41,231 nucleotides of DNA from a virus: positions 1 through 41,231 of IMG/VR virus record IMGVR_UViG_3300021963_004898. One strand, 5' to 3'. The translations under genes were made by a program, and so were the position numbers. How positions within the stretch are numbered: the first letter of the stretch is position 1; every line of letters begins with the position of its first letter. Below, in pieces: positions 11,964 to 40,685 of the stretch. The notes under the pieces were generated by a model. That model was given only the letters and a program-made list of their open reading frames with translations. It was not told where the DNA came from and searched no databases.

Positions 11964-11981
11964 TTTAATTCACCTTTCAAT

Positions 11982-14221: not shown

Positions 14222-14275
14222 AGTTATTCCTCAATTATTATATAATTATAACACAATTTATAATTAATGTTTAAT

Positions 14276-14283
14276 TATTTATA
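14276..14283 (-). promoter_or_regulatory. T4-type late promoter for the downstream sugar genes
   Basis: Exact TATAAATA on the minus strand, abutting the stop codon of the upstream glycosyltransferase (14284) and about 55 bases before the ATG at 14221. The leader between is almost pure A and T. Confidence 0.68.
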
Positions 14284-16517: not shown

Positions 16518-16562
16518 ATTTTATTCAAATTTAGTTAGTGCTAAATTATCCTTTATTTAAAA

Positions 16563-17297: not shown

Positions 17298-17298
17298 T

Positions 17299-17901: not shown

Positions 17902-17902
17902 A

Positions 17903-18511: not shown

Positions 18512-18528
18512 AATATATCCCCTTTTTA

Positions 18529-19284
18529 TTAAATCCAAGCGTCCCAAAATATTTCACGATTATATTGATCATACAAATCAAGACCAAGATATTCGACACA
18601 ATTAACGGTGTCTTTTTTTAATTCATTTCTTGTGCCCATATTAGGTCCAGTAATATTTTTAAAATCATGTTCATAAGATGGCAACTCAAAAAAGTCATAG
18701 ATACGCTTTGTTTGACTTTTTGGATTACCACAAAATCTACTATAATCAACAAATAAACATCTATCCAAAAAACCCATTGTAATACTATCTAAAAGATTTC
18801 TATGTGAAGTTCCTAAAATGCCATCTGGCCCTGCATAATAATAAGCTCGAGCCGCAATTGAATTTGTATCTCTTAGATTTTGATCAGCGTTCGATAGACT
18901 AAGAGGGTTTTCTCTCCTACTTTTTTCAAACGAAGTCAGAATTTCTGCTGGATTTCTAACACAAACCAATACTTTAATTTGTTTTTGTAGAACAGATTCT
19001 AAAGCTCCAAAAGATGGAGTCCAATTAATATTACGATCAAAAATAATTGGGCGATCATTATTAGCATAGAAACCATCAACAATACCGCTTAAAACGTTTT
19101 TCTTAATTTCAATATCTGAATCGTTACTTAAATTTTTCCATCCAAGATGCACAGCATTAAATACGGATTCTAATGATCCATTAACCTCACCACGTATTTT
19201 TGGATTTTGATTCAGTATATTTGTTATAACTGAAGAGCCTGAACGGGGTAGTCCAGTAATAAAATAAATGTTATCATGTTTCAT
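18529..19284 (-). CDS. Sulfotransferase
   Basis: Probable PAPS-dependent sulfotransferase of 251 residues. The 5'-phosphosulfate loop is FITGLPRSGSSVI (8-20), with the P-loop-like G-x-P-R-S-G-S-S. The 3'-phosphate site is VLVCVRNPAEILTSFEKSRR (105-124), with R110 and S118 in the expected places. This fits Sulfotransfer-type enzymes that sulfate sugars or proteins in bacteria. A TATAAATA lies about 22 bases before the ATG, so the gene heads a late transcript leading into the methyltransferases. Sulfation of fibre glycans or tyrosines is possible but unproven. Sulfotransferases are unusual in phage late regions. Confidence 0.85.
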   Translation of the reverse strand: MKHDNIYFITGLPRSGSSVITNILNQNPKIRGEVNGSLESVFNAVHLGWKNLSNDSDIEIKKNVLSGIVDGFYANNDRPIIFDRNINWTPSFGALESVLQKQIKVLVCVRNPAEILTSFEKSRRENPLSLSNADQNLRDTNSIAARAYYYAGPDGILGTSHRNLLDSITMGFLDRCLFVDYSRFCGNPKSQTKRIYDFFELPSYEHDFKNITGPNMGTRNELKKDTVNCVEYLGLDLYDQYNREIFWDAWI

Positions 19285-26334: not shown

Positions 26335-26360
26335 GCTTATCTCCTAGATCGTGTGTGTTA

Positions 26361-28676
26361 TTAAGCAATGACGCTTTCTCTTAAGAATTTAATAGTAGTA
26401 TTCGAGTTGGTTGGAGTAACTTTAACCACAAGATCACTACCACTAACTTCAGCAGTTACAGTAATTAAACTTGATCCAGAATACATCGTTGCATATTCTG
26501 TAACAACAGCATCCGTACCATTATGAGTGACTATAACTTCTGTCGAATGGACATCTGTAGAGGTCTTAGCTTGAACGATATATTTAGCTGTTCTGTATGT
26601 AGATAAAGCAAATGTGTCTATCGTTTGGTTTGGTGTAGTTGTCGTTAATGATGCACTACCTTCTGTTAACCCAACACCTGTGGCACCAATTGCACCGGTT
26701 GAACCTGAAGCACCTTGTACGCCGCTGGCACCTTGTACACCTGAAGCACCTGTGATACCTGTAGCACCTGAAGCACCTTGAGCACCCGTTGCACCTGAAG
26801 CACCTTGAGCACCCGTTGCACCTGAAGCACCTTGAGCACCCGTTGCACCTGAAGCACCTTGTGTACCTGAGGCACCTGAAAAACCTTGATCTCCATTGTT
26901 ACCTGTTACACCTGAAGCACCTTGTGGGCCACTAGCACCGCTAGCACCTTGTGTACCTTGAGAACCAGTTAAGTTAACTGCCCATGTTCCACCAGTTGCA
27001 CCTGAAGCACCATTGAATGAATCTTTTCTAAATGTAAGAATACCAGTTGCACCAATTGCACCTGTGGCACCATTAAAGCTGATAACAGTACCGCGTTGTA
27101 ATAATGAAGGTGATAAAGCAATAGTAATACTTTGACCAACAGAATAGTCGAAGTAATCATTAGATAGAGTAATAACACCAGTTGCACCATTGTTTTCTAA
27201 TGTTAATCCACCAGTGTATGTTGTGTTGTATGTATCACCAGCTGCACCTGCAGTACCTGTAGCTCCGTTAGTACCTGAAGCACCTTGGATACCTGTAGCA
27301 CCATTTACACCTGATGCTCCGCTTGCACCTTGAATACCTTGAGAACCAGTTGCACCAAATGCACCAGTTGCACCAGCAACTCCATTTGCACCAGTTGCGC
27401 CACTAGCACCTTGGATACCAGAAGCACCTGTGATACCTGACGCACCTGTTACACCAGAAGCACCAGTAATACCTGAAGCACCCTCAGTACCAGAAGCACC
27501 TTGTGTACCTTGAGCACCTGTTACACCTGAAGCACCTTGGATACCTGAAGCACCAGTTGCACCGAATGCACCAGTTGAACCTGTTACACCAGTCGCACCG
27601 CTTGCACCAGTTGCACCACTAGCACCTTGAACACCTGAAGCTCCTTGTACACCAGAAGCACCAATTATACCTGTGGCACCTGAAGCACCTTGTAAACCTG
27701 TTGCACCAACATTACCTGTAGCACCGAATGCACCTGTTGCACCAACTAAACCCGTCGCACCTGTTACACCAGAAGCGCCAGTTGCACCGCTAGCACCTTG
27801 AACTCCAGAAGCACCTGAGGCACCAGTTACACCTTGAGAACCTGTAGCACCAAATGGTCCAGTTGCACCTGCAGTACCTTGTGAGCCTGTAGCACCTCTC
27901 GCACCTGAAGCACCTTGTACACCAACTGCACCGTCTAAGTTAATAGACCAATTAGAACCAGTGGCACCCGTTGCACCTTGGAATGAATCTTTTCTAAATG
28001 TGATAACACCTGTAGCACCGCCAGTACCAGTGTAACTAATAACTGTACCATGTTGATGTGTATTAACATCTAATGCTAAAATAATTGTTTGACCGATTGA
28101 ATAGTCAAGATCAGAGTCTGCAGTATAAACTACACCTGTAGCACCATCAGCTGATAGCTGGAATGTAGTTGTAGATGTTGTATTATATTGGTCACCTGCA
28201 AGACCTGCAGCACCTGTAGAACCTCCAACACCTGTAGCACCAACATTACCTGTTGCACCACTTGCACCTTGAACACCTGAAGCACCTGTTACACCAGAAG
28301 CACCAGTAACACCAGAAGCACCTACTATACCTGTGGCACCTGATGCACCTTGCGCACCTGTAGAACCACTTGCACCTTGAACACCTGTAGCACCATTTGT
28401 ACCCGCTGGACCTGTAGCACCTGAAGCACCTGTTATACCTGAAGCACCCGTTGCTCCTGAAGCACCTTGAACACCTTGAGAACCTGTGGCTCCTGAAATA
28501 CCGGTTGCACCATTAACGCCTGCTGCACCTGTGGCACCGCTAGCACCAGTCGCTCCACCTGAAGCTCCTGTTCCTAACCATACGCCGGTTGACGAAATGA
28601 CATCTATTGGCCCGGTGGCTCCACTGCCTACCGCTATACCATTCTTTGCTACGAATTTTGAATTATTTGTTGCCAC
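26361..28676 (-). CDS. Large modular collagen-like tail fibre
   Basis: A 771-residue paralogue of the preceding fibre. The shared N-terminal block is [20 protein letters not shown] (1-20) with VWLGTGASG to about 40. Gly-X-Y runs (mainly GAT/GAS with GVQ, GIT, GVT) are interrupted by the globular module at 161-252 ([14 protein letters not shown] to NLDGAVG) and again at about 480-572 ([14 protein letters not shown] to AVNLTG). The tip (about 680-771) runs from [20 protein letters not shown] to [10 protein letters not shown], matching the 778-residue fibre's tip. The start is GTG with AAGGAG about nine bases upstream. A late promoter lies 44 bases before it. Confidence 0.87.
26764..26860 (-). 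repeat. 27-base tandem repeat in the collagen stretch
   Basis: Three perfect copies of a 27-base unit (26764-26790, 26791-26817, 26818-26844) followed by a 16-base partial copy. On the minus strand it encodes the nine-residue cycle GASGATGAQ, so length changes keep both reading frame and Gly-X-Y phase. Confidence 0.9.
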
Positions 28677-28719
28677 GGGAAATCTCCTTAAATTTGGTGT
28701 TAGTGCTGGTGCTTATACT

Positions 28720-28727
28720 TATTTATA
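28720..28727 (-). promoter_or_regulatory. T4-type late promoter for the collagen-like fibres
   Basis: Exact TATAAATA on the minus strand in the 68-base gap before the 771-residue fibre gene, 44 bases before its GTG start. Confidence 0.75.
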
Positions 28728-28744
28728 ATAGTTATACTTCATAA

Positions 28745-30766
28745 TTATACTTCAATCATGACTTTTTTGTACTTTAATATGGTTATAGAATTAACAGGTG
28801 TAAACCTTAATTCTATATTACCAGAACCTGTCCACGATATATTTGTTACTAACGTGTTAGGTGAATTACTTGTAGTAGTCGTTGCTGTATACACTCCAGC
28901 ATTTACTTCAGTGAACGCTGATGCAAGTGTAGCACTTAATGCTCCAGAATTTAAACTAATTACTGTAGATACAGGAGCAGAAAGTAATGCTTCTATTACA
29001 TTTGCATTAGATGTGTAGATCGTTAAATCTGTATTATTCCAAAATGATAGTCCGCCATTATTAATATCTGGTGAACTATAGTTATTAGACAGAGGTGAAT
29101 AAAATGATGCAAAACTTCCTAAAGGACTACCTAATCCAGCATACTCTGTTAAGAATACATTTGGAGTATCGATCAATAATCTTAATTCGCTTACAGCGTA
29201 ATCTGATCCTGAAGTTACTTGCATCTCATATTTAACACTTCTGTATATCGATGCATTTATAGTTTCAACAACAACTTCAGCAGTTGATGATGTAGTAAAT
29301 GTTATTGTTTCAGGACCAGCACCAGTAGCACCAGTTAAACCTGTAGCACCTTCTGCTCCAGTAGCACCATCTAATCCTGCAACACCTGATGCTCCTTGTA
29401 AACCTGATGCACCATCTACGCCAGTTGCACCATCTACGCCAGCTGGACCTGTTGCACCATCAACACCAGTTGCACCATCAACACCTGATGCACCATCAAC
29501 ACCTGATGCACCATCTACGCCAGTTGCACCATCTACGCCAGCTGGACCTGTTGCACCATCTGTACCAGTTGCACCATCAACACCTGATGCACCAGTTAAA
29601 CCTGTTGAACCTTGTATACCTACAGCTCCATCGAGGTTGACTTCCCATGATGAATATGTGCCTGTACCAACAGCTCTAACTTTATCGAATGTGAGAGCAT
29701 TAGTACCTGAATCAAACGCTGTTACATTACCATATTGTCTATGAGATCCATCATAAGCTACTACAACGTCTTGACCAATAGAATAATCTAAGTTTGAATC
29801 AACTAAAGTGATAGTTTGTGAACCACTATCTCCTAATGTAAATGTAGTTGTAGATGTTGTGTGGTATCTATCTCCATCTAATCCTGCAACTCCTGATGCG
29901 CCATCTACGCCTGATGCTCCTTGAATTCCAGAAGCTCCTTGGTGACCAGATGCACCATGAACTCCTTGAGAACCTGTAGCCCCTGATGCACCAATAACTC
30001 CACTTGCACCTTGAATACCTGTTGCTCCATCAATGCCTGAGGCTCCTTGTTCACCTTGAGAACCTGTAGCTCCAGCAACACCACTCGCTCCAGTTATACC
30101 ACTAGCACCATCGACACCTGATGCACCTTGAATACCTTGAGAACCAGTGACACCTGATGCACCTTGAGCACCAGCAACACCGCTAGCACCAGTTATACCT
30201 ACTGCACCGTCTAGATTAATTTGCCATGAACTATATGTACCGCCTCCTGAAGCATCAGTCTTTGTAAAGACTAATTCTCCGGTTGCTTGATTATATGAGA
30301 CTACTCGACCATGTTGATGATTAGAACCATCATACGCTAAAATAATTGTTTGTGCTGTTGAATAGTCTAGGTTTAAATCGACAGTGGTTACAGTAACATT
30401 TCCAGACCCACCAATTGTGAATGTGGATGTTGACGTCGTATGATACTTATCACCAGCAGCACCACTTGCACCAGTTACGCCTGATGCTCCATCAGCTCCA
30501 TTAGTACCAGTTGCACCATCTAATCCTGCTGAACCTGATGCACCTTGTACACCGCTTGCACCTTGAGATCCATTTGCACCTGATGCTCCGGTTGCTCCTG
30601 ATAATCCTGCGGAACCTGAGGCTCCTTGAGCACCTGTTGCTCCACTTACACCTGATGCACCAGCAGGACCGGTTGATCCAGTAGCTCCATCATATCCTGT
30701 ACCAGAACCAGTACCTGATAAACCTTGTATCCCGACCGCGGTGACTTCTGCGTAAATATCTGCCAC
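28745..30766 (-). CDS. Large modular collagen-like tail fibre with distinct ends
   Basis: A 673-residue fibre. The N-terminal about 22 residues (MADIYAEVTAVGIQGLSGTG) differ from the other three, so it may attach elsewhere. Gly-X-Y runs with unusually many GVD and GLD triplets surround two globular modules at 105-190 (AGDKYHTTSTSTFT to NLDGAVG) and 298-383 (GDRYHTTSTTTFTL to NLDGAVG). The C-terminal about 190 residues (ETITFTTSSTAEVVVETINA to ILKYKKVMIEV) share the opening and end of the other tips but carry a long insertion in the middle. The start is GTG with AGGAATAAGAA upstream. The preceding stop is 16 bases away. Confidence 0.87.
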   Translation of the reverse strand: MADIYAEVTAVGIQGLSGTGSGTGYDGATGSTGPAGASGVSGATGAQGASGSAGLSGATGASGANGSQGASGVQGASGSAGLDGATGTNGADGASGVTGASGAAGDKYHTTSTSTFTIGGSGNVTVTTVDLNLDYSTAQTIILAYDGSNHQHGRVVSYNQATGELVFTKTDASGGGTYSSWQINLDGAVGITGASGVAGAQGASGVTGSQGIQGASGVDGASGITGASGVAGATGSQGEQGASGIDGATGIQGASGVIGASGATGSQGVHGASGHQGASGIQGASGVDGASGVAGLDGDRYHTTSTTTFTLGDSGSQTITLVDSNLDYSIGQDVVVAYDGSHRQYGNVTAFDSGTNALTFDKVRAVGTGTYSSWEVNLDGAVGIQGSTGLTGASGVDGATGTDGATGPAGVDGATGVDGASGVDGASGVDGATGVDGATGPAGVDGATGVDGASGLQGASGVAGLDGATGAEGATGLTGATGAGPETITFTTSSTAEVVVETINASIYRSVKYEMQVTSGSDYAVSELRLLIDTPNVFLTEYAGLGSPLGSFASFYSPLSNNYSSPDINNGGLSFWNNTDLTIYTSNANVIEALLSAPVSTVISLNSGALSATLASAFTEVNAGVYTATTTTSNSPNTLVTNISWTGSGNIELRFTPVNSITILKYKKVMIEV

Positions 30767-30782: not shown

Positions 30783-31127
30783 TTATGCCGGATCCGGCTT
30801 TGTTATTTGTGGTGTAAAGATGATGGTGCCTTCTGATACCCTTAATCTTTCACCTGTTGGTGATTCTATCTCTATGTCATACATATATCGACCAGGTTTA
30901 ATACTATTTGTTTGTTCATCTGTTAATGATACGCGGACTTGACCACCAGATACTGAATAGATAGTAGCATTAAAGTCTATGTGAGTCCTTGATGCATATG
31001 ATTTTCTAATGTATGAAGTGACTGAGAACCCAGTCAGGTTTAATGGTAATCCATCAGATCCTTTGACTGTGATAACTGCTCCAAACGTGGATCCAGTGTC
31101 GATATAGAAATTTGTTATAGCTGCCAT
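30783..31127 (-). CDS. Small beta-rich structural protein
   Basis: A 114-residue protein likely to be a beta-sandwich: NFYIDTGSTFGAVITVKGSD, LNLTGFSVTSYIRKSY and GQVRVSLTDEQTNSIKPGRY with YDIEIES read as alternating strands. The pattern resembles N-terminal domains of phage baseplate-upper/receptor-binding proteins (BppU-like), where a short domain hangs a fibre on the tail; that is a weak guess. It directly precedes the 673-residue fibre gene, which has a different attachment end, so it could be its adaptor. A TATAAATA lies only six bases before the ATG and there is no ribosome binding site. Confidence 0.72.
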   Translation of the reverse strand: MAAITNFYIDTGSTFGAVITVKGSDGLPLNLTGFSVTSYIRKSYASRTHIDFNATIYSVSGGQVRVSLTDEQTNSIKPGRYMYDIEIESPTGERLRVSEGTIIFTPQITKPDPA

Positions 31128-31202: not shown

Positions 31203-31607
31203 TTAAACATCTATCATAAACTCCTTTATAAAATACTTCTTGACATCAGGAACCATTCCTTTAGTTTGATCAAACTTCCATCCGCCTATATAACTTAATA
31301 TTTGATTATATGTGATAATGTCTTCATCATGTGTTACGAAATATGGGTCATTGCCAAATAGTAAATCTATATCATTTAAGTAGTCTACAGGATTTCCTCC
31401 AAACTCTTCAGAAAGCCATCTAGCATAACATATAGCAACCATATAACTTTTAGATGGATAGATCCAACCAATGTCTTTTTCGGTAAAATACCGAACAGCA
31501 TCTGTCACTACATTATCAGTGATCTCTATATTCTTATCATTTAAGTCATCATCATGGACAATGTTTAGTCTATGATAGAGCTCTTGTCTTATCTTCCAAT
31601 CTTCCAT
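31203..31607 (-). CDS. Unknown protein at the end of the radical-SAM operon
   Basis: A 134-residue protein if begun at the ATG at 31607 (MEDWKIRQELYHRLN); a TTG at 31622 with AAAGGA just upstream is an alternative that adds five residues. It is acidic (NIVHDDDLNDKNIEITDN), has a hydrophobic/aromatic segment SYMVAICYARWLSEEFGG, and ends VPDVKKYFIKEFMIDV. No catalytic motif or cysteine pair is visible. Its 5' end overlaps the 3' end of the radical-SAM gene upstream, so the two are probably made together; a small partner or substrate-presenting protein is one possibility, but I do not recognise the family. Confidence 0.72.
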   Translation of the reverse strand: MEDWKIRQELYHRLNIVHDDDLNDKNIEITDNVVTDAVRYFTEKDIGWIYPSKSYMVAICYARWLSEEFGGNPVDYLNDIDLLFGNDPYFVTHDEDIITYNQILSYIGGWKFDQTKGMVPDVKKYFIKEFMIDV

Positions 31608-32508
31608 GTTTGTACCAATCAATTAGTCCTTTATACCCATTACATCCATTATCCAAATCTTTAACATATCGATAATGTTCTGTTAAACACGTGCCATAAT
31701 AATCACATGACTTACATACATTACTTACGTTCTTGTTAGGTTCATTTAATGCCCATTCTTTATACTCTTGTATTGAGTCTAAAGACTTAAAATATTCTTT
31801 ATCATTTAGGTCAAACTCAAGGACTGCAAATTGTCCAGTTGGAGTAATATATACATGATCATTACTAAATGCATTACGAGACCCATCTAGAGTAGCTTGG
31901 ATGTTCTTTTCATTGACAAACTCAAACCTGATTTGTATGTCACTATCAATCCATTTTTGCACAAACAATTCAAAGTCTTTATGACTGACCGAGTCACAGT
32001 TTGCTTGGTTTATGCTGTATGGTTTTATCTCTACAGAACTTAAATTGCTTAATAAGTTTAATTGAGATATCATCTCTCTTATATCTTTATTTATTAACTT
32101 TTTACTAGCTAATATTAATATAGAGAATGGTTTATTGAGCGCAAACATATTATCCCATACACGATCATGCTGTTCTCTACAATCAAAGTCATAGCTAACA
32201 GATACGTATAAATCTGGGTTGGTTATAACTGTATTGACCATACTTAGATTAGTGATTATGTTTATGTCATCAATGCCTCGCGACTTAACTATGTCGCATA
32301 ACTCTTCTACATAATCTTCAGGTAGTAATCCTATCTCACCACCATATAAGTCAATACCATGGATCTCATCGACAGATAACACTTCATCAAGTCTATTAGC
32401 CAATACATTTAAGTCTAATAGTGTTTTATCATTTAGTTGTTCTTTTGTTAAGTAACAGAAGTCACATCTAAAGTTACAATAATACCACGGATTAATTGAT
32501 ATAATCAT
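31570..32508 (-). CDS. Radical-SAM protein with short auxiliary Cys cluster (C)
   Basis: A 312-residue radical-SAM enzyme. The 4Fe-4S motif CNFRCDFC is at C11, C15 and C18, directly after a MIISINPWYY strand; DLYGGEIGLLP (about 54-64) supplies the GGE motif that contacts SAM. The C-terminal VCKSCDYYGTCLTEHYRYVK with a later DNGC looks like a reduced SPASM/twitch segment that could hold one auxiliary cluster. Such enzymes often modify peptides or small proteins. The ATG has a GAGAGAA just upstream and lies within the end of the previous radical-SAM gene (17-base overlap). Confidence 0.87.
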   Translation of the reverse strand: MIISINPWYYCNFRCDFCYLTKEQLNDKTLLDLNVLANRLDEVLSVDEIHGIDLYGGEIGLLPEDYVEELCDIVKSRGIDDINIITNLSMVNTVITNPDLYVSVSYDFDCREQHDRVWDNMFALNKPFSILILASKKLINKDIREMISQLNLLSNLSSVEIKPYSINQANCDSVSHKDFELFVQKWIDSDIQIRFEFVNEKNIQATLDGSRNAFSNDHVYITPTGQFAVLEFDLNDKEYFKSLDSIQEYKEWALNEPNKNVSNVCKSCDYYGTCLTEHYRYVKDLDNGCNGYKGLIDWYKHGRLEDKTRALS

Positions 32509-33565
32509 ATTCTCTCTGATATGGAGTAGATTCTAACTCTAATCCATTAGCTTTGATTATATCAGGAGCAAGTTGCTTCATCTTATAGCAATGCTCTTCA
32601 ACTAAGTTATGATTCTTAAGGTCTGCGATAGTCTTCTTACACCCATTACATATATCAAACATAGGACAAATATAACATGATTGTTTTAAACTTTGCAGTT
32701 CATGTTGAAACTTAATAGGATGTATCTTTTCACCAGTCATTTCTTTATTAAAGTCTATTGGATATTGTCTATCATCTCCAAATGCACCACAAGAGTAGTA
32801 GTCTCCAGATGGTTGCAAAGTCCTAATATTACTATCACAGTCTCTATTCTGAGGGCATGTAGTACCTTCACCACGAAGGCGTTTAACCATCTGTTTAGTA
32901 TTATATTCCCATTCTGTTAAGCCTCTTTTCCATATCTCAACATATATCTCATACATATCTGCTAATAAGTATGGCTTACCTTCCTGACCCATGATTATGT
33001 TCTTGAACTTGACCGGCGGGCCTGATGAAAATGCATAGTTAAGTTTACACTCCACACCCATCTTCTTAGCTAACTCGACGTTTTTTATAGCATCGTGTTC
33101 ATTTTCTTCAGTGATGACTGAAATAAAATCTGGTCGATATCCACAATATTCAAGCATTGAGTTTGAAACGTTCCAAAAGTCTTCTTCACTAAATTCAGAT
33201 AAATCTCCTTTGAGTCTTCCACCACCATATTGAAATGATGTGGTTACTCCAACTCTAGGATGATTGAATAGTTTTTTCCATCTGTCAGGATTTTTGTAGA
33301 ATGGCCAAAGATTTGTTGTCAATGATATAGTTGCTTGAGAATGAATTTCGTTAAGGTGATTAATTATTTTCCAATAATAATCAGGATCCATCATTAGCGG
33401 ATCTCCACCATTAACTATAATAGTATTTGTTTCTGGAAATCTTTTTAGAAAGTCAAAGATGTATTGATGATCAAGCTCAGCAGTTTTGTCTTCAGTAATA
33501 TGTGTACTTGAACAAAACGTACACTTGAAATTACATTTTTCAGTTGGTTTAATTATTAATTCCAT
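32492..33565 (-). CDS. Radical-SAM/SPASM protein (B)
   Basis: A 357-residue radical-SAM enzyme with CNFKCTFC at C11, C15 and C18, then IIVNGGDPLMMDPDYYW (the GGD/GGE SAM-contact motif). The C-terminal third carries a SPASM-like set of cysteines: GTTCPQNRDCDSN, DYYSCGAFG, then CYICPMFDICNGCKKT and a last EEHCYKMK. This is the arrangement expected for two auxiliary 4Fe-4S clusters in peptide-modifying enzymes such as anaerobic sulfatase-maturating enzymes and sactipeptide synthases. It starts at ATG 33565, overlapping the upstream radical-SAM gene by ten bases. The substrate is not known. Confidence 0.9.
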   Translation of the reverse strand: MELIIKPTEKCNFKCTFCSSTHITEDKTAELDHQYIFDFLKRFPETNTIIVNGGDPLMMDPDYYWKIINHLNEIHSQATISLTTNLWPFYKNPDRWKKLFNHPRVGVTTSFQYGGGRLKGDLSEFSEEDFWNVSNSMLEYCGYRPDFISVITEENEHDAIKNVELAKKMGVECKLNYAFSSGPPVKFKNIIMGQEGKPYLLADMYEIYVEIWKRGLTEWEYNTKQMVKRLRGEGTTCPQNRDCDSNIRTLQPSGDYYSCGAFGDDRQYPIDFNKEMTGEKIHPIKFQHELQSLKQSCYICPMFDICNGCKKTIADLKNHNLVEEHCYKMKQLAPDIIKANGLELESTPYQREYDYIN

Positions 33566-34557
33566 TTATTATCCACATAATCATATACCTGTTTTAACCA
33601 ACACTCATCTTGTGTTCTAGCGTCTTTAATGTGATTGCTTAAAAAACATCCTAATGAACATCGATTAAAGTGTTCACACTCTAAACATTTATAATCGTCA
33701 AACCATTGTTGTTCTAAAGTTTTCTTAGAAGGTATAAGTTTAATTGGTATAACGTCTTTTAGTAGTATATCGCATCTACCAAAATCTGAATTAGGCATGA
33801 TTGTATATGTATCCATGCATGACATGCTTCTTTTGATGGTCGATTCTAAATCTTTAAATGGATTACAATTAGGCCTATTGTTATACATATGAATCATAAA
33901 GTCTCTAAGCTCAACGTCTTTAGGTATCAATATATCCATATGTTTTTCTGGAGTATAGTAGTCAAAATATATACTGAAATTGTCGTATAGATAATCAAAG
34001 AATGGAACGTTATCATCAATAAATCTAGTTATATTCTGCTTTGTCATAATAACATTTACAGATTTGATATATCGCCTAAATGTTTTCACGTTTCTTTTAA
34101 ACACTTCAAAAGTGTCAACGTTAAATCTTCCAGACGGGTCATAACTTGTGTACAAACTTGTCTTTGATTTTGCTAAGAATTTCTTAACTCTATCAACTTT
34201 TGTAAATATGAAATTTGTTGTGAACTGAACACTCACTTCAATATTATTATCTGAGCAATATTCTCTAATAGAATTTACTAGTATTAAATAGTCATCATAT
34301 ACTGAGTCTGGCAATTTATCAGAAAATACTTCCCCACCCATTATATTGATAGTGAATGTAGTTTTACCTCTGGTTTGTAATTCAGCAATTGCTAGTTTGA
34401 TAGGTTCAAGTTTTTCTTTGATTGTGTCCACACCTACCATACTTGTGTGGTCTTGATTACAGAATAAACAAGATATATCACAAAACTCAAATAAAGTTAC
34501 AATGATTTCACCAGTTTCGGTCCGTTTTATATTACTAATTACTTTTTCAGCAATCAT
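33556..34557 (-). CDS. Radical-SAM/SPASM protein (A)
   Basis: A 333-residue radical-SAM enzyme. The start is taken as the ATG at 34557, whose ATGA overlaps the TGA of the oxygenase gene upstream; a TTG 12 bases earlier is less likely. The cluster motif CDISCLFC lies at C26, C30 and C33 and is followed by NIMGGEVFSD (the GGE motif). The C-terminal part holds CLECEHFNRCSLGCFLSNHI and a final DECW, plus earlier SCMDTYTIMPNSDFGRCD, giving a SPASM-like set. It is one of three consecutive radical-SAM genes differing greatly in sequence, so they probably act on different sites or substrates rather than being simple duplicates. Confidence 0.88.
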   Translation of the reverse strand: MIAEKVISNIKRTETGEIIVTLFEFCDISCLFCNQDHTSMVGVDTIKEKLEPIKLAIAELQTRGKTTFTINIMGGEVFSDKLPDSVYDDYLILVNSIREYCSDNNIEVSVQFTTNFIFTKVDRVKKFLAKSKTSLYTSYDPSGRFNVDTFEVFKRNVKTFRRYIKSVNVIMTKQNITRFIDDNVPFFDYLYDNFSIYFDYYTPEKHMDILIPKDVELRDFMIHMYNNRPNCNPFKDLESTIKRSMSCMDTYTIMPNSDFGRCDILLKDVIPIKLIPSKKTLEQQWFDDYKCLECEHFNRCSLGCFLSNHIKDARTQDECWLKQVYDYVDNKWN

Positions 34558-35189
34558 TTTATTTTCCAATTATAAGAGAAAGCAAACGTATATCTATTTT
34601 TCTCTTTCTTCATTCCTTCAACTTTATGCATGAATAAAGGATTATCATTATTAATAATTATCATTGTTGCTGTATTCGGAAGTACTTTAGTTGTATATAC
34701 GTCTTTGTCAAATAGTTTTTTTGTTACAGTTAAACTACCTCCCCATTCTTCTTTCCATTCTTCGTCTGCAAGATAGCATAACACAAGAGTATTTGTTCCA
34801 TCTATGACATCTTGATGAAAATCATCATCTTCAGCACCATTCCATAAATTTATTGCTGAAATTTCATGTATAGGCCTGTTTATACGTAGAAAATCAAAAA
34901 TAGATGAGCATATTAAATCATTTGCCAGGACTCTTAATGAGTATGGACTATTTTGTAAGTTTAATTTATTGGCTTGATATTCGTATTCTTGATGAGCATC
35001 ATGACCTTGAATATCCACTGGTTGTCCCTCTATGTACCAATCAGGAACAGTTTGAAATACAGATTTGCTCTTAATCCAATTTGTAGTATATATTTCAGCC
35101 CAAAAGAAAAGAAGTAAATCTTCTGGTATTTTTGTAATTATAAAACCTTTTTCATAATAATCAAATCCAAGATTTGCTGATTTCATCAT
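34554..35189 (-). CDS. 2OG/Fe(II) oxygenase, prolyl-hydroxylase type (2)
   Basis: Probable 2-oxoglutarate- and iron-dependent hydroxylase. Numbering from the ATG at 35189 (211 residues; a second ATG follows at 35186, and an in-frame TTG at 35201 is less likely), the iron ligands appear as DDFHQDV (H125, D127) and FMHKVEG (H188), with R199 in KNRYTFAFSYNW as the 2OG carboxylate anchor. The strands between (NTLVLCYLADEEW, WGGSLTV, TATMIIINNDNPL) follow the jelly-roll of the P4H-like family. These enzymes hydroxylate Pro, Lys, Asn, Asp or His in proteins. The gene overlaps the paralogous oxygenase upstream and couples to a radical-SAM gene downstream. Confidence 0.83.
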   Translation of the reverse strand: MMKSANLGFDYYEKGFIITKIPEDLLLFFWAEIYTTNWIKSKSVFQTVPDWYIEGQPVDIQGHDAHQEYEYQANKLNLQNSPYSLRVLANDLICSSIFDFLRINRPIHEISAINLWNGAEDDDFHQDVIDGTNTLVLCYLADEEWKEEWGGSLTVTKKLFDKDVYTTKVLPNTATMIIINNDNPLFMHKVEGMKKEKNRYTFAFSYNWKIK

Positions 35190-35679
35190 GATTCCAATCA
35201 ACTAAAAAATCAAAACATGCCACAATTCGTCGATGTTCCGTGTGTTCGACTTTGTGTAAAATATTTGGATTATCATTCAATAGTGCAACCAATTCTCCAT
35301 ATCTAGGATAAATTACATTATCTTGAATATGAAGTCCACCTTCTTTAATTAAACTCATGTCATTAAAATATAATAGAAAGAATACATTTGATGGTTCATC
35401 AGAATCTGAATGGAATTGGCAAAACTTAGAATCTTTAGGTAAGTTTCCTTTTATGTCAGACTCTAATAATTTATATGAGTGCGCGTATGGCTCAACATAA
35501 GTTAAAGCTATTTGATTATGAATAGCATTTAATAATATCTTAACATACTCTTGATTATTAGTAGGCAATCTACTAATATGTGATGTTTTTGGGTCAAACT
35601 CTAAATCATCAGTCTGTAGTTGGTCTGCTAAATCTGTTGCTAACCAATTGCAGTATCCATTTTTAAACAGACTATACAT
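35161..35679 (-). CDS. 2OG/Fe(II) oxygenase, prolyl-hydroxylase type (1)
   Basis: A 172-residue protein with the complete ligand set of a 2OG/Fe(II) oxygenase: CQFHSDSD (H90, D92), then NILHKVEH (H142) and HRRIVACFDFLVD (R150 or R151 as the 2OG anchor). Strands NVFFLLYFNDM, EGGLHIQ and GELVALLNDNPN sit between in the usual order, including the EGG turn typical of prolyl-4-hydroxylase-like proteins. It starts at ATG 35679, immediately after the stop of the unknown gene upstream with no spare base. Its similarity to the next gene is clear in the DNPxxxHKVE segment, so the pair probably arose by duplication and diverged. Confidence 0.85.
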   Translation of the reverse strand: MYSLFKNGYCNWLATDLADQLQTDDLEFDPKTSHISRLPTNNQEYVKILLNAIHNQIALTYVEPYAHSYKLLESDIKGNLPKDSKFCQFHSDSDEPSNVFFLLYFNDMSLIKEGGLHIQDNVIYPRYGELVALLNDNPNILHKVEHTEHRRIVACFDFLVDWNHDEISKSWI

Positions 35680-36762
35680 TTATCTAATTAAATATGCTTT
35701 CAAGTTGTCTGGCGTTTTTAAGTTTTGTAATACAAAGTCAATGAAGTATATATTAATATTTTCCAAATCTATTGTTGAGCAGAAAGGTTCATCAGCATCA
35801 CTCTCGTTTAGAATGAACGTATCTAAGTCAGAATCGGACATCTCGTCTTTGCGTACATATTTAACATAAGATTGGAAATAGTTTTTATATTCCAATTCTG
35901 GATAGACTTTGTTGATAAATAAATCCAGTTCATCCAAATCGGAATCTGTGATAGATTTCAAATCAATATTAGATGATTTACCAAACCTAGGGGTTCCAAT
36001 TTGTTTTAGGAAGCTAGAATCATTGACAATCTTAAGTGCTGGGTCAACACTGTATGCGTCGATATTATCAAAAGTATTTAATTTTAATCCAAGTTTAGTA
36101 GCAAAACCTTTACGTAAAAGCTTTCTATAAGTTGTATATTTCGCTTCAATAATAGTTTGTTCGATTTGGCGTTTAACTAATTTTTGAATAGCAGTTTTTA
36201 ATTTTTCTTTTTGAGTCTTATTATTTACATATGATGATAATAAGAACTCAATGCTTAGATTGTAATCAACTTCAGTTAAAATGCTTTTTGCTTGACTTTC
36301 GGCAACTGTAGTTTTACTAAACACAGATTCCCATTCTTGTAATGACGGTTCAAAAGTATCGAAAGCATCAAAGTCTTTTGTTTCCAAACTACCTACAAGT
36401 TTTTCTCTATCAAAATGTGCTTTGATAATTTTATAAGATGATACTGTATTGATATTTGCAAAAATAGCTTTAAACCAAGCACATACAATAGTCAAAAATG
36501 CTTGTTTATCAACATATATTACGAAAGGTTTATCGTTGGTTGTATTTTTTTGTGAGATGACTTTCAATAAAGAAAAGATATTTTCATACTCTTTACCTTT
36601 ACCAACAATCTTAGTAATATCATCTACATGATGAAGAACATCACCAATAGATACTTTACTGCCATCTGGCATACCAACATCTTTTGAAATAACTAATCTG
36701 TCATTTTTGACATCAATCAATGAGTCTATTTGAATATATGTTTTTTTAAACAGGTGTAACAT
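35680..36762 (-). CDS. Unknown 360-residue protein of the enzyme operon
   Basis: I do not recognise this family. The protein begins MLHLFKKTYIQIDSLIDVKN, has hydrophobic segments FVIYVDKQAFLTIVCAWFKA and LSIEFLLSSYV, a basic helical region KLKTAIQKLVKRQIEQTIIE and a strongly acidic C-terminal part (SDLDELDLFINKVYPELE, then DEMSDSDLDTFILNESDADE). No nuclease, kinase or transferase motif is visible. The ATG has AAGGAG about seven bases upstream and overlaps the end of the previous gene by 17 bases. Placement between the (CHxx)3 protein and the oxygenases suggests a role in presenting or assembling that protein, or simply a tail component. Confidence 0.75.
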   Translation of the reverse strand: MLHLFKKTYIQIDSLIDVKNDRLVISKDVGMPDGSKVSIGDVLHHVDDITKIVGKGKEYENIFSLLKVISQKNTTNDKPFVIYVDKQAFLTIVCAWFKAIFANINTVSSYKIIKAHFDREKLVGSLETKDFDAFDTFEPSLQEWESVFSKTTVAESQAKSILTEVDYNLSIEFLLSSYVNNKTQKEKLKTAIQKLVKRQIEQTIIEAKYTTYRKLLRKGFATKLGLKLNTFDNIDAYSVDPALKIVNDSSFLKQIGTPRFGKSSNIDLKSITDSDLDELDLFINKVYPELEYKNYFQSYVKYVRKDEMSDSDLDTFILNESDADEPFCSTIDLENINIYFIDFVLQNLKTPDNLKAYLIR

Positions 36763-37474
36763 TAGCTAACTCCTTTAATTCTTTAATGGAATTTTGTTTT
36801 GCTTGAGTGTATTCTTCGTTTTTAAATAATTGCTCTGCTATGCCAACAGTCAATAGATACATGGGATTATTATTATTAGCCCAATAAGAATAAAGATTTT
36901 TACCTTTAAACATATATTCACTAAAATATTTAGAATAATATTTCAGATTCGTTTGGTCAATAGCCCCATATAATGTGTAAAAGAACTCGTGTTTTAATAA
37001 GCTCACAAAATTAACTCCTTCGGTGCTGTCCGTACTATTTTCAGGAAATTGCTTAACAAAATCTTTTATTTCAGGAACATCAATAATAAACATATTATAT
37101 AAAGTTAAACTATCAAGTTTTGAAACCCAACTTTCAATTAATTCTTTATTATCAATAATGAATTTCTGATATGTGATAGCATCAGTCATATGCTTATATT
37201 CAAGCAACAATTTGATAGTTTCAAATTCTAAAGATTTGATATTCACTAAACTAGGACTAATTAAATAGTCTCTTAATAGTTCCAATTTTAATTTTTCATC
37301 AACATTAGATAAATCTATATCTGCTGGAATATCTAAATTACTTAGATAAGTTAATAATTTTGTACCAGTAAGTGTGCTGTTTACATAATCAATTTCATAT
37401 GTAACTGATTTATCTGTAAAATATTGCTTAAGATTGTCAATTGATATAGGTGCAGTTGTTCTCACTAAACTCAT
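36746..37474 (-). CDS. Unknown 242-residue protein next to the (CHxx)3 protein
   Basis: Not recognised. It begins MSLVRTTAPISIDNLKQYFT and appears largely helical, with many Leu/Ile-spaced stretches (DEKLKLELLRDYLISPSLVN, FETIKLLLEYKHMTDAITYQ) and an aromatic section FFYTLYGAIDQTNLKYYSKY. It has no cysteines. The ATG lies six bases after the stop of the (CHxx)3 gene, so the two should be co-translated. It could be a chaperone, a leader-binding partner or a structural protein; the sequence does not decide. Confidence 0.75.
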   Translation of the reverse strand: MSLVRTTAPISIDNLKQYFTDKSVTYEIDYVNSTLTGTKLLTYLSNLDIPADIDLSNVDEKLKLELLRDYLISPSLVNIKSLEFETIKLLLEYKHMTDAITYQKFIIDNKELIESWVSKLDSLTLYNMFIIDVPEIKDFVKQFPENSTDSTEGVNFVSLLKHEFFYTLYGAIDQTNLKYYSKYFSEYMFKGKNLYSYWANNNNPMYLLTVGIAEQLFKNEEYTQAKQNSIKELKELANVTPV

Positions 37475-37480
37475 AATAAA

Positions 37481-38053
37481 TTATCTTCTTCCTCTGGATC
37501 CATGACAGTTGCTATGGCACGAAGCATGACATACATTCACTTGTAGAGTTACTGTATTATCTCTAGCTGAATTATATGATGTTCTTAAATTATTAAAAAA
37601 GGTTTCTAATCCCGCACCGGTAGCAACACTTCCTGATACGACATCTGACGCGCCAGCGCCTATAGATTGGCGATATGCTGTCGTAAAATGTGCTTTTGCT
37701 GTTGTATCAAATACTATGCCGGCAGTGGGTCTTGTCCCAGTATTACCACCGCCCCCATCTACAAATAATATGGCTCTCAAATTTCTAATATTAGTATAAG
37801 TAGCTGTCTCGGTCAATAATGTATTATAGATGTTAGCTGCATTAATAACGTTACCTATAGCGTCTATATTGCCGCCAGATATTCCAATAGATTTCCCAGC
37901 AGTAGTATCACCAAACTCTGCACCATATATCCATTCTGCAAATGGATATGCATCAGTACCCCATGCAATACTAGCATTTGCTGTAGCTACCACATAGTCT
38001 GCAAACCTATCGACTATGTTTTGCGGATTAATTGGATTATTTAAAGTTGCCAT
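37481..38053 (-). CDS. Tail-type protein with C-terminal (CHxx)3-RGRR motif
   Basis: A 190-residue protein I cannot name. The body (MATLNNPINPQNIVDRFADY, GKSIGISGGNIDAIGNVINA, TATYTNIRNLRAILFVDGGG) is Ala/Thr/Gly/Asn-rich like phage structural proteins. The last 16 residues (175-190) are CHASCHSNCHGSRGRR: three CHxx units in register, then a basic end. These hold all three cysteines of the protein and three of its four histidines (the other is H122 or nearby). The ATG has AAAGGAAT about six bases upstream, and a TATAAATA lies 17 bases before it. A radical-SAM/SPASM gene ends just upstream, and three more radical-SAM and two oxygenase genes follow in the same operon, so the tail may be a modified peptide or a metal site. 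Confidence 0.83.
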   Translation of the reverse strand: MATLNNPINPQNIVDRFADYVVATANASIAWGTDAYPFAEWIYGAEFGDTTAGKSIGISGGNIDAIGNVINAANIYNTLLTETATYTNIRNLRAILFVDGGGGNTGTRPTAGIVFDTTAKAHFTTAYRQSIGAGASDVVSGSVATGAGLETFFNNLRTSYNSARDNTVTLQVNVCHASCHSNCHGSRGRR

Positions 38054-38069
38054 TGTTATTCCTTTATAT

Positions 38070-38077
38070 TATTTATA
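38070..38077 (-). promoter_or_regulatory. T4-type late promoter for the (CHxx)3 operon
   Basis: Exact TATAAATA on the minus strand, overlapping the stop codon of the upstream radical-SAM gene and ending 16 bases before the ATG at 38053, with AAAGGAAT between. It makes the (CHxx)3 protein the first gene of a late transcript. Confidence 0.75.
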
Positions 38078-39116
38078 CTTGCATAATAGAGAATACTTTT
38101 CTCTGAGTCTTTGCAAGTTCTCTCATTAAACTTTTTGGCGCGCCACATATATCACCTTCCCAGGCTAATTGATGGCAGTCTCCACCACAATATTGAAATA
38201 CATCACATGAATAACATATATCATTTCGTGAAGCTTCACATGCCATGTTTTCTAATCTTATTGGGCTATTTATAAGATCTTTTATGGTGTCTTCTATGTG
38301 TCCAAACTGGAACTCTGGAGCAGAATTTGGGCATCCAGATATGGTTCCATCAGCATTTAGTGTGAATATCTTCTCTTCACAGTCTCTACAGAAAGTGCCG
38401 CCTTTATTGAATCCAGTCTCAAATTTAGAATATACTACTTCTAAGAAGTCATTATCAAACCAATTTCTTGTTCCATATTGTACCGACTGTTCGTGCATCT
38501 TAAGGAACCATGCATCTTGTTCGATGTTAGATGGAAATATCTCAGGAAACTTCTTAGCGCTCCCATTATTAGTCAGTCTCTCAAATGATACTTCTTGAAC
38601 TCCTAACATTCTTATCCATCTCAGCAATACTATTGGATCTATAGCTATAGTATCTTTTGTGACACTTATAAACAACCTAATTGTTATGCCTTCATCTAAT
38701 AGTATCTTTACATTATTGCGCCAAAGATTTACTTGTTTCTTATTATCAAATCTTATCTTTGGATCCCATGAAGTCCCAATGCGTCCTTCAAATGGTCCTT
38801 TAATTAAATCTATATGTTCTTGGTATAACTTAAATACTAAATTAGTGGTTGCTCCCCATGTCATGTTAGTAAACGAAGTCTTACACTTATCCCATACCTC
38901 ATACATCTGGGATGCTGGCACTAAGAATGGTTCACCACCATGAAACTCACAATGAGCTGTATCAGTATTTGTTGCTTGTTCTGAGAACCTATGCAACCAA
39001 TCTATGACTTTATTATGATCCCAATATACCTTTGCCCCATTTATACCATTAGTAAAACAATGGCGACAGTTTAAGTTACATGTCTCAGTCGTCTTTAGGT
39101 AAAACATCCAATTCAT
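38073..39116 (-). CDS. Radical-SAM/SPASM protein (D), upstream of the (CHxx)3 gene
   Basis: The most canonical of the four radical-SAM proteins, 347 residues. The cluster motif CNLNCRHC is at C13, C17 and C20; CEFHGGEPFLVP gives GGEP; and IGTSWDPKIRFDNKK is the strand seen in peptide-modifying members. The SPASM domain is complete: GTFCRDCEEKIFTLNADGTI, then SGCPNSAPEFQFGHIED, and finally ICYSCDVFQYCGGDCHQLAW with GDICGAPK, enough for two auxiliary clusters. Enzymes of this layout include anSME, sactionine synthases and PqqE. The ATG at 39116 overlaps the cupin-type gene by 32 bases (a second ATG is at 39107). It ends 20 bases before the (CHxx)3 gene. Confidence 0.93.
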   Translation of the reverse strand: MNWMFYLKTTETCNLNCRHCFTNGINGAKVYWDHNKVIDWLHRFSEQATNTDTAHCEFHGGEPFLVPASQMYEVWDKCKTSFTNMTWGATTNLVFKLYQEHIDLIKGPFEGRIGTSWDPKIRFDNKKQVNLWRNNVKILLDEGITIRLFISVTKDTIAIDPIVLLRWIRMLGVQEVSFERLTNNGSAKKFPEIFPSNIEQDAWFLKMHEQSVQYGTRNWFDNDFLEVVYSKFETGFNKGGTFCRDCEEKIFTLNADGTISGCPNSAPEFQFGHIEDTIKDLINSPIRLENMACEASRNDICYSCDVFQYCGGDCHQLAWEGDICGAPKSLMRELAKTQRKVFSIMQV

Positions 39117-39600
39117 TACAAGATTTATCCTTCAAATAGTTTTCTAAACCAAAGCTTAACGTTAATGCTGCGCATTCATTTAATGCTTGATGTGGAGTAT
39201 TAGCTGGGATGTGAACACGTTCTCCAGCTTCTAATACTATATATGTGCCATCCACCATCATGGTTTTCTTGCCTTCACAGCAAACTATGATTACGTCATC
39301 TGGATCGGTATGCGTATCAAATGATGGGGAGTTTTCTTGAGCAATGAATGCATGACATGTCACAGGGCCATGATGATCATATTCATCAGCCAATTCACTA
39401 CACTTATCCCAAATTTCTTTAGAATATCGCTCCATCCCTTCGACCTTAATAGTCTTAGGCTCATCATCATATAGTTCACTAGAATGATTAAGGGGGATTT
39501 GCATCCCCCTGTCATTTATTATTGAAACTAAATTTTGCTTGTATGACAAAGGGTTGTGAATGAATTCAACAACTTCATTAAGTGTTATAATATAAAGCAC
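39085..39600 (-). CDS. JmjC/cupin-type 2OG/Fe(II) oxygenase-like protein
   Basis: A 171-residue cupin-fold protein. The likely iron ligands are FDTHTDPDD (H97, D99) and IPANTPHQAL (H137), spaced as in cupin_4/JmjC hydroxylases; DVIIVCCEGKKTMMVDGT and YIVLEAGERVHIPA are the strands in between. Some members of this superfamily hydroxylate His, Asn or Arg in proteins; other cupins do not use 2OG at all, so the chemistry is uncertain. The start is probably GTG at 39600, overlapping the tail-fibre gene upstream by 16 bases; the ribosome binding site is weak, so coupling is likely. It overlaps the radical-SAM gene downstream. Confidence 0.75.
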   Translation of the reverse strand: MLYIITLNEVVEFIHNPLSYKQNLVSIINDRGMQIPLNHSSELYDDEPKTIKVEGMERYSKEIWDKCSELADEYDHHGPVTCHAFIAQENSPSFDTHTDPDDVIIVCCEGKKTMMVDGTYIVLEAGERVHIPANTPHQALNECAALTLSFGLENYLKDKSCNELDVLPKDD

Positions 39601-40685
39601 TCCACTAATTTTTCTTCATGTGTTAAATCTGTCTTTAATGCAATCGCAATCGCATTAACTTGACCTAATATAGCTTGACCATTTGTGGCTGCACAAACAG
39701 ATTCTCCCTTTCTAATAGGACCGACTACTCGAACAGGCACTCTTCCTTTGATAGCAACTGCTTGACCTGATGATTCTGAATTCATTAAGAATGCTGGATT
39801 CTCTGATATAACTCCTATAGCATGTTGTCCTATATAATCTGATGCTGCGCATTCAGAATCTTCACTCTGTGAAACTACCATAATTGTTCCTACCGGATAT
39901 AGTTTATCAGTAGTATATTTTTCTGCTAAGTCTGCATATCTTGCAGATGTTGCTGTGCCCTTAAATACATTTGTTGTTAAGTCTCCAAAAGCATCACGAA
40001 CCGCTACAGTATTTTCTGTAGCGCTCATTGATGATGTGTATCCGTCTAATAAGTCTGCATCTAATCCAGATCCGGATCCATCATTACCGGAATGCCATGG
40101 AATATAACCTAAAGCATTAGTAACATCTGTGCCGCTTAATGATGTACCAACAGTAGCTCTACCTTTAGCATCGACAGTAATCTTAGTATAAGTTCCAGCT
40201 GCTACACCAGTGTTAGCTAATGTAAAAGCTCCAGTCACGTTTGCTGATCCATTAAATGACGTAGTCCATGAACCATCACCAGTAATAGTAAACGTTCTAA
40301 TATTAGCAAGAGTTCCAGCTGAACCGCTAGTATTACCTGTTACATTTCCAGTTAAGTTTCCCGTTACGTTGCCAGTTAAGTTACCTGTTACATTGCCGAT
40401 TAATGTTGCAGTAATAGTACCTGCAGCAAAGTTACCTGAAGAATTCCTAGATACTAAACTATTACCAACATTTGTTGTAGCTGGACTTAAACCGTCAACT
40501 AAGTCAGCATCTAAACCAGAGCTTGCACCATCAACAGTTAATAGTTTTGAAAGTACATCTGCTGCGGTATATGATGTAGTAGGTACTTTTTCTCCAAGTT
40601 CAGTATTTAATGCAGTAAAATTTGCATCTACCTCGGTTAGTGTTAGAGGAGATCCCTTAATGCTTCGTAGTGTTATGCTTGCCAT
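39585..40685 (-). CDS. Tail fibre protein with GNVTGNLTGN repeats
   Basis: A 366-residue fibre protein. The N-terminal part starts MASITLRSIKGSPLTLTEVD and continues ANFTALNTELGEK, a head often seen in phage fibres. Two SGLDADLxDG motifs (about 57-66 and 206-215) are also typical, as is the Asn/Thr/Gly repeat GNVTGNLTGNVTGN (about 98-120). The C-terminal domain from ARYADLAEKYTTDKLYPVGT to AIKGRVPVRVVGPIRKGE matches a widespread phage fibre end related to autoproteolytic Peptidase_G2-type chaperone domains. The ATG at 40685 has AAGGATAT just upstream. Two other tail genes flank it on the right. Confidence 0.86.
   Translation of the reverse strand: MASITLRSIKGSPLTLTEVDANFTALNTELGEKVPTTSYTAADVLSKLLTVDGASSGLDADLVDGLSPATTNVGNSLVSRNSSGNFAAGTITATLIGNVTGNLTGNVTGNLTGNVTGNTSGSAGTLANIRTFTITGDGSWTTSFNGSANVTGAFTLANTGVAAGTYTKITVDAKGRATVGTSLSGTDVTNALGYIPWHSGNDGSGSGLDADLLDGYTSSMSATENTVAVRDAFGDLTTNVFKGTATSARYADLAEKYTTDKLYPVGTIMVVSQSEDSECAASDYIGQHAIGVISENPAFLMNSESSGQAVAIKGRVPVRVVGPIRKGESVCAATNGQAILGQVNAIAIALKTDLTHEEKLVECFIL

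Follow-up and report, generated by a model that had tools for sequence, protein, structure and literature searches.

Four radical SAM enzymes and putative hydroxylases form a conserved cassette beside phage fibre genes, with the Cys/His-rich tail of a neighbouring protein as their probable substrate

Radical S-adenosylmethionine (rSAM) enzymes of the SPASM type usually act on peptides or proteins, and JmjC_2 hydroxylases and ribosomal oxygenases hydroxylate His or Arg residues. In phages, rSAM gene cassettes have been noted within the host recognition cluster of pelagimyophages (PMC7029224), a marine T4-like genome carries 12 rSAM genes together with iron-sulfur (Fe-S) assembly genes (PMC5332604), and further accounts, in the passages available, treat such genes as annotations or as part of Fe-S metabolism (PMC5468394, PMC8066314); in the available text of PMC11898562 the term radical SAM appears once. 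Here we analyse the 41,231-base IMG/VR record IMGVR_UViG_3300021963_004898 (the window, meaning the whole stretch of DNA examined), in which four rSAM genes, a cupin/JmjC-type gene and two genes for 2-oxoglutarate (2OG)-type oxygenases accompany a protein, termed P, that ends in a Cys/His-rich tail. We consider it probable that this block is a dedicated post-translational maturation cassette for the P tail, following a logic like that of ribosomally synthesised and post-translationally modified peptides (RiPPs) and serving host or prey recognition.

The window encodes portal, tube, sheath, terminase, sheath stabiliser and neck proteins as well as fibres, a set that we take to belong to a T4-like myovirus. 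Eleven tightly packed genes run from position 39600 down to 31203, all on the minus strand, bounded by two fibre-related genes and transcribed in the order cup, rSAM-A, P, U1, U2, 2OG-a, 2OG-b, rSAM-B, rSAM-C, rSAM-D and V. An earlier reading of this DNA, made without database searches (the sequence-only reading), had placed seven redox enzymes here; the positions of the open reading frames (ORFs), matches to Pfam and phrog_1802, and conserved residues confirm all seven on that strand. P is what it called the "(CHxx)3 protein", and U1 and U2 are the two proteins that it listed as unknown. The cassette comprises:

39085..39600, minus strand: cup, a cupin/JmjC_2-type putative Fe(II)/2OG hydroxylase (PF08007; invariant H97, D99 and H137)
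38073..39116, minus strand: rSAM-A, a radical SAM/SPASM protein (phrog_1802, TIGR04085; own clade)
37481..38053, minus strand: P, the proposed substrate, with a body (residues 1-174) and a C-terminal tail; ends in the motif and precedes U1
37484..37531, minus strand: the P tail, residues 175-190, CHASCHSNCHGSRGRR; proposed core of three CHxS-type units plus an SRxRR end
36746..37474, minus strand: U1, partner protein beside P (phrog_20767)
35680..36762, minus strand: U2, found in 48 of the 51 full loci defined below
35161..35679, minus strand: 2OG-a, a 2OG-type oxygenase with a conserved HxD...H...R
34554..35201, minus strand: 2OG-b, a 2OG-Fe(II) oxygenase (PF13661/PF13640)
33556..34569, minus strand: rSAM-B (phrog_1802; own part of the tree)
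32492..33565, minus strand: rSAM-C (PF04055, phrog_1802; own clade)
31570..32508, minus strand: rSAM-D (PF04055, phrog_1802; own clade)
31203..31622, minus strand: V, a small protein closing the cassette (phrog_20737, E 2e-52; in 48 of the 51 full loci)

The tail of P carries the motif CHxSCHxxCHxSRxRR at the C-terminus. Positions C175, H176, C179, H180, C183, H184, R187, R189 and R190 are invariant among 68 sequences, in an alignment with a mean column identity of 33% whose members were partly selected by a pattern containing these residues. One early locus set, with a tail-derived seed among its six seeds, was likewise an unfair test of tail invariance. A query lacking the tail retrieved 12 loci, of which 11 do have it and the twelfth is a spurious 19-residue match, and an exact-motif scan of viral sequences returned at least 120 stretches. 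With U1 as the query, 154 relatives were confirmed and 80 retained; 76 of the retained loci were newly examined, and 4 were already in the earlier set. An ORF ending in CHxxCHxxCHxx[RK]x[RK][RK] lies directly before U1 in 75 of the 76 viral loci; at the lone exception, L296, the contig end leaves 83 bases upstream. The fourth place of each of the three units, which the search motif leaves free, is skewed to Ser among the 68 distinct proteins of this set (S in 62, S or N in 67 and S in 62, respectively), and the unit can thus be written CHxS. In the structure model of P the body is confidently folded and the tail has low pLDDT. Because 172 of 183 distinct P bodies fall into one single-linkage group at E 1e-3, P is for the most part a single family whose bodies diverge fast and whose tail is fixed. 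A fold search with P matched BFVD entries, including a protein of phage Atu_ph07 and three proteins of Myoviridae sp. ctijX18.

Other arrangements of P were also observed. Two tandem short P proteins (125-144 aa) occur at L036 (9647-10485) and also at L078, L097, L124, L126, L149, L157 and L191; they stand upstream of U1 where the locus extends that far, and several rSAMs lie elsewhere on most of the tested records. Strong multiple phrog_1802 matches were found in 8 of 10 records or genomes with a tandem P or a cut locus, which supports, but does not prove, the presence of the cassette in them. At L288, L289, L290 and L294, a 312-aa tail-less P-like protein comes first and the tail is borne by the next protein, of 145 aa, as though P were divided in two.

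The genes surrounding P recur together. At the 51 full loci, defined as loci retrieved with U1 that have 3 kb or more upstream and 9 kb or more downstream, P, cup, rSAM-A, rSAM-B and rSAM-C are present throughout, rSAM-D in 50, and U2 and V in 48 each; several of these loci share contigs or are near-identical in sequence, so that the counts are not all independent. In INPHARED, rSAM-A at E 1e-8 or better is found in 7 of 50,697 records, representing six distinct phages (Atu_ph07 is included twice) that infect Pseudomonas, Burkholderia, Agrobacterium or Sinorhizobium, have genomes of 225-490 kb, and all encode P. Since the same block recurs across far-diverged phages, its grouping is not due to chance, and the P, U1, rSAM and cup genes form one cassette. 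The sequence-only reading had proposed a search for this block in related phage genomes and had named separately located homologues with unrelated roles as the pattern that would speak against it; no such dispersal was seen, and rSAM-A to rSAM-D, the cupin and P stand together in 50 of the 51 loci. A fortuitous gathering of unrelated genes in a variable host-recognition island might be argued from the adjoining fibre genes, which mark a region of a kind known to vary, and from oxygenases that differ in number and place between loci, yet we regard it as close to inconceivable in view of a core that is constant in 50 of 51 full loci and of a cassette that is also found, with a different gene order, in bacteria of the phylum Bdellovibrionota.

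The CX3CX2C cluster motif is present in all four rSAMs, and the cluster cysteines of each are conserved among its 55-78 non-redundant relatives. The proteins at 31570, 32492 and 38073 score above cut-off for PF04055 and/or PF13353 (PF04055: 41.4 bits for rSAM-C and 31.8 bits for rSAM-D), and rSAM-B, at 33556, has a weak Pfam match (E 0.01). All four match phrog_1802, with E values of 9e-68, 5e-40, 4e-59 and 2e-35 for rSAM-A to rSAM-D; this family also matches all 14 control genomes and is therefore a broad rSAM model. Against the SPASM model TIGR04085 (cut-off 27 bits), rSAM-A scores above it at 33.6 bits, rSAM-C (21.2) and rSAM-B (16.4) fall under it, and rSAM-D is without a listed match; SPASM-like cysteines are conserved in rSAM-A, -B and -C, and four such residues in rSAM-D. 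The sequence-only reading had described the four proteins as sharing only the cluster and a GGE motif and as otherwise dissimilar. The cluster motif is indeed common to all, but GGE is not, the protein at 32492 having GGD, and the general dissimilarity was overstated: pairwise identities among the four are 18-25%, rSAM-A and rSAM-C share 25% identity across 321 residues (E 2e-10), and all four fall into one PHROG.

In a quickly built tree of 90 rSAMs from 23 loci, which leaves 27 forks open and has long branches in L156, each cassette position occupies its own part (15 label changes versus a shuffled mean of 52.6); the grouping into A to D is clear, whereas the inner order is not. Each of the four clades spans T4-like, phiKZ-like and Rak2-like phages, and this distribution, together with the low pairwise identities, indicates at the level of sequence that the four rSAMs are four old and separate orthologous groups with separate jobs, which fits the earlier suggestion that each performs a different chemistry. 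The rSAM genes of Pseudomonas phage DT01 have been written about as auxiliary metabolic or DNA repair genes, in a passage that offers no experiment (PMC8541153), and the genes described here could be viewed likewise. Such a role is very improbable, as the four rSAM groups remain linked to P, U1 and cup in phage groups that are unrelated to one another, and SPASM-type cysteines are indicative of substrates that are peptides or proteins. In DT01, six rSAM genes are annotated (L001, 14398-19875) and the A-D models match only four ORFs. Elsewhere, a B12-binding-domain radical SAM protein lies inside a Halobacteriovoraceae cassette (L337, 16548-18311), and a similar-looking ORF was observed at L340 (3548-5281).

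Catalytic residues are kept in all enzyme families of the cassette. The cup protein matches Cupin_2 and JmjC_2 above cut-off (PF08007, 30.9 bits versus 22), and its H97, D99 and H137 are invariant across 78 relatives. 2OG-b exceeds the cut-offs for PF13661 (28.2 bits versus 27) and PF13640, with H129, H192 and R203 invariant in 49 sequences. A Pfam scan of 2OG-a gave no oxygenase match; its H90, D92, H142 and R151 nevertheless show conservation of 90% or more among 69 relatives. The 2OG oxygenases vary in number and position between loci, with none in 2, one in 16, two in 20 and three in 13 of the 51 full loci. Since their count is variable and the four rSAMs and cup are constant, the rSAMs and the JmjC/cupin enzyme form the core of the system and the 2OG oxygenases are accessory. 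Two genes annotated as dihydrofolate reductase lie inside the cassette of phage SURPRISE13 (L004, 16861-18038).

The model of U1 is confident (pLDDT 94.4), and this neighbour of P is the leading candidate for the role of presenting the tail; V has 12 fully invariant positions among 49 sequences. From these features we infer the modification of the tail, the order and chemistry of the steps, docking through SRxRR and the location of P at the fibres. P would be made with a folded N-terminal body, which would remain attached, and a flexible C-terminal tail whose SRxRR end is probably a docking element. U1, perhaps with U2, would present this tail to the enzymes, and the four different SPASM-type rSAMs, the JmjC/cupin hydroxylase and zero to three accessory 2OG oxygenases would crosslink and hydroxylate its Cys/His core, the Cys residues being possible sites for thioether or other crosslinks and the His and Arg residues possible sites for the JmjC_2-type hydroxylase. 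The modified tail would stay on P, and mature P would be carried by, or join, the fibres with which the virion recognises its host; the counterpart in Bdellovibrionota would be a fibre of S74 type belonging to the predator. The proposal of the sequence-only reading, that a virion protein is tailored in several steps, is thus the best supported, with modification itself deduced; that reading was largely right but had not fixed the substrate, for which the conserved tail of P is now the clear candidate.

The link to fibres is provided in the first place by the flanks of the cassette, which comprise:

39585..40685, minus strand: tail-fibre gene with an IMC/Peptidase_G2-like C-terminus, upstream of the cassette (phrog_7389/phrog_19602 tail fibre; PF11962 at 20.5 bits, below the cut-off of 25)
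30783..31127: fibre-assembly-like gene on the other flank

Beyond the latter, three collagen-like fibre genes (Gly-rich triplets) follow one another at 23998-30766, each beginning with GTG and encoding 673-778 aa, and the block does therefore lie between fibre genes, as had been claimed for it. Between the neck and fibre genes (10284-19284), the window also has glycosyltransferase and methyltransferase genes, an arrangement that resembles the host recognition clusters described in the available passage on pelagimyophages (PMC7029224). Of a diverse set of 52 genes located upstream of cup, 51 were aligned, a single very long one being excluded; among these 51, phrog_22593 is matched by 37 and phrog_19602 (tail fibre) by 33, and 139 PHROG families are matched in all. 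A further link comes from Atu_ph07, whose virion proteins, detected by electrospray tandem mass spectrometry (ESI-MS/MS), are reported in the passage seen to lie mainly in three clusters, one of which is CDS 170-215 (PMC6102473). P is gp170 of this phage and hence the first CDS of that cluster; the numbering is consistent with the authors' gp181, a baseplate protein, and gp198, their head protein, which the record annotates as portal.

The enzymes might instead act on another product of the block, for example a fibre or U2, and the tail might be an unmodified metal-binding motif. Cys-His pairs readily bind metals, and a fibre gene adjoins the block in most phages. However, the upstream neighbour varies, as the 139 families matched by 51 neighbours indicate, yet P is found in 51 of 51 full loci, and U2 is missing from three of them, all of which makes another target distinctly unlikely.

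The cassette is not confined to phages. An exact-motif scan of genome contigs returned 88 stretches, 16 of them with the motif at a protein end (L038, L040, L048, L057, L067, L076, L078, L084, L096, L097, L101, L114, L118, L120, L124 and L125). In the other 72 the motif is not at a protein end, and these, part of which were inspected, look like chance matches in biased frames. Eight of the 16 motif-ending loci carry Bdellovibrionota names, and L120 is a ninth from the same phylum. Larger regions from these bacteria contain the same cassette genes in other orders, among chromosomal-looking genes, and U1 is sporadic in the phylum (5 of 144 sampled genomes). No PF04984 sheath was found in the eight genomes searched, which argues against a myoviral prophage there, although this is a weak test and one genome (L057/L342) is phage-like by its fibre genes.

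In the nine Bdellovibrionota genomes with U1, genes with the S74 domain (chaperone of endosialidase) number only 1-4 per genome, and in six of the nine an S74 gene lies within about 13 kb of U1, for which a rough estimate assuming independence gives 3e-9. Several of these neighbouring S74 proteins have a prepilin-like motif at their start (PF07963) and are encoded in pairs with a 200-aa protein of no assigned family. S74 genes are neighbours of P, and a Pfam scan of one P protein (L040) gave no match, S74 included. According to the passage seen, S74-type trimeric fibres are one subfamily of the mosaic adhesive trimer (MAT) fibres with which Bdellovibrio recognises prey (PMC10769870). In two distant members of the phylum the core of the tail is altered and the terminal R-x-R-R is kept, which is the pattern expected of a modified core joined to a docking end.

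P could also be a strict RiPP precursor that gives up its tail: once modified, the tail would be cleaved from the body and set free during infection or predation, rather than staying on the particle, and would act as an antibacterial, a signal or a metal-binder of small-molecule size. The cassette logic resembles that of rSAM RiPP clusters, the nearest NCBIfam models to rSAM-A and rSAM-C are peptide maturases such as PapB and TIGR04083, albeit far below cut-offs, and the tail is C-terminal, with a core that is variable in distant Bdellovibrionota. We nonetheless judge this unlikely: no recurring transporter or protease was seen while tracking only the eleven window families, with other ORFs listed in some loci; the body of P is a well-folded domain of about 170 residues and no short leader; the near-invariant phage core and variable body are the reverse of a typical RiPP family; and P opens the virion-protein cluster of Atu_ph07, as far as the available account of that phage goes. 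A tail that is matured and retained on P is therefore the reading that we continue to favour.

Genes for Fe-S supply accompany some cassettes. Among 20 large cassette records, an A-type carrier (PF01521) is found in 8 and a NifU_N scaffold (PF01592) in 6, and one IscU query matches 18 of 50,697 INPHARED records, a loose comparison given that record sizes and search methods differ. In one 354-kb viral record (L358/G165), two A-type Fe-S carriers and a NifU_N gene lie at C1:277644-279857, 0.6-2.9 kb after V. As a tentative extension, the matured tail may possibly be a genetically encoded, radical-made metal-binding or polycyclic tip, a virion part put together by the radical chemistry of several enzymes and in effect a protein-borne cofactor for engaging the Gram-negative target surface that is common to phages and predatory bacteria, and this may be the reason why some T4-like phages carry Fe-S assembly genes.

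Several points weigh against a maturation cassette that serves recognition fibres. No modification of the tail was seen. Tail invariance in the pattern-selected loci was partly imposed by the search pattern, and the U1-fetched set, a fair test of the tail, was also read with the motif. Fold searches gave no trustworthy PDB match for P, and with it no known fold pointing to a function, and for U1 no PDB match with an E value of 0.001 or less (best Z 4.0, over residues 1-79 only). The presence of P in the virion is deduced from the boundary of one mass-spectrometric cluster in one phage, as given in the available passage, together with gene position. With respect to the predators, in one of the nine genomes (G069) the S74 genes and the cassette lie on different contigs, two more have short cassette contigs of 10.9 and 11.6 kb, and visual inspection of the Bdellovibrionota P proteins revealed no obvious signal peptide at their start, a difficulty if they belong to a surface fibre. 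A comparison of the phage fibre C-terminus with the 200-aa Bdellovibrionota neighbour was plausible by eye and reached an hhalign probability of 31%, and homology is not claimed.

If the favoured reading is true, the maturation of a phage particle protein involves four radical SAM enzymes together with hydroxylases. There would then be a likely substrate for rSAM genes that have until now been assigned to auxiliary metabolism or DNA repair, a connection between phage host recognition and predation by Bdellovibrionota, and a suggested reason for the Fe-S assembly genes of some large phages; two confident structure models without a clear PDB match are offered as well. To our knowledge, no virion part has been described as made by such chemistry, although on a stricter view the cassette could be counted among the rSAM RiPP systems as a variant. 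A literature search found no virion assembly step of this kind, most subscription papers and all preprints outside PMC lying beyond its scope. The pelagimyophage cassettes of PMC7029224 and the rSAM genes of PMC5332604 are possibly the same cassette seen in passing; the passages available from both name neither P, nor the tail, nor a function beyond Fe-S metabolism.

None of the known families tested fits the cassette. Among known systems, the rSAM/SPASM RiPP clusters (for example PapB ranthipeptide, dynobactin and darobactin) likewise place SPASM-type rSAMs beside a Cys-rich C-terminal segment. Unlike them, the present cassette has four distinct rSAMs in addition to JmjC/cupin and 2OG enzymes, and its P has a large folded body and, in phages, a near-invariant core. 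All cassette rSAMs score far below the cut-offs of curated maturases; with the PapB ranthipeptide maturase model NF047865, rSAM-A reaches 44.8 bits versus a cut-off of 340. His-x-Ser units with rSAM partners are shared with the His-Xaa-Ser system (HxsA/HxsB/HxsC; Haft and Basu, as cited in the passage seen of PMC9062424), but the P tail has a period of four, with a Cys before each His, and scores fall well short of the HxsB model TIGR03978 (rSAM-A, 23.2 bits versus 370) and the HxsC model TIGR03977 (rSAM-C, 32.9 versus 267.9). The cup protein resembles the JmjC_2/ribosomal oxygenase hydroxylases (PF08007) in scoring above the Pfam cut-off and in keeping HxD...H, and differs from them in being short (171 aa). 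Finally, the S74 subfamily of Bdellovibrio MAT fibres, as described in the part seen of PMC10769870, a paper with 0 occurrences of "radical SAM", finds its counterpart in the S74-type fibre genes that adjoin the Bdellovibrionota cassettes, several of whose products differ from MAT fibres in having a prepilin-like start.

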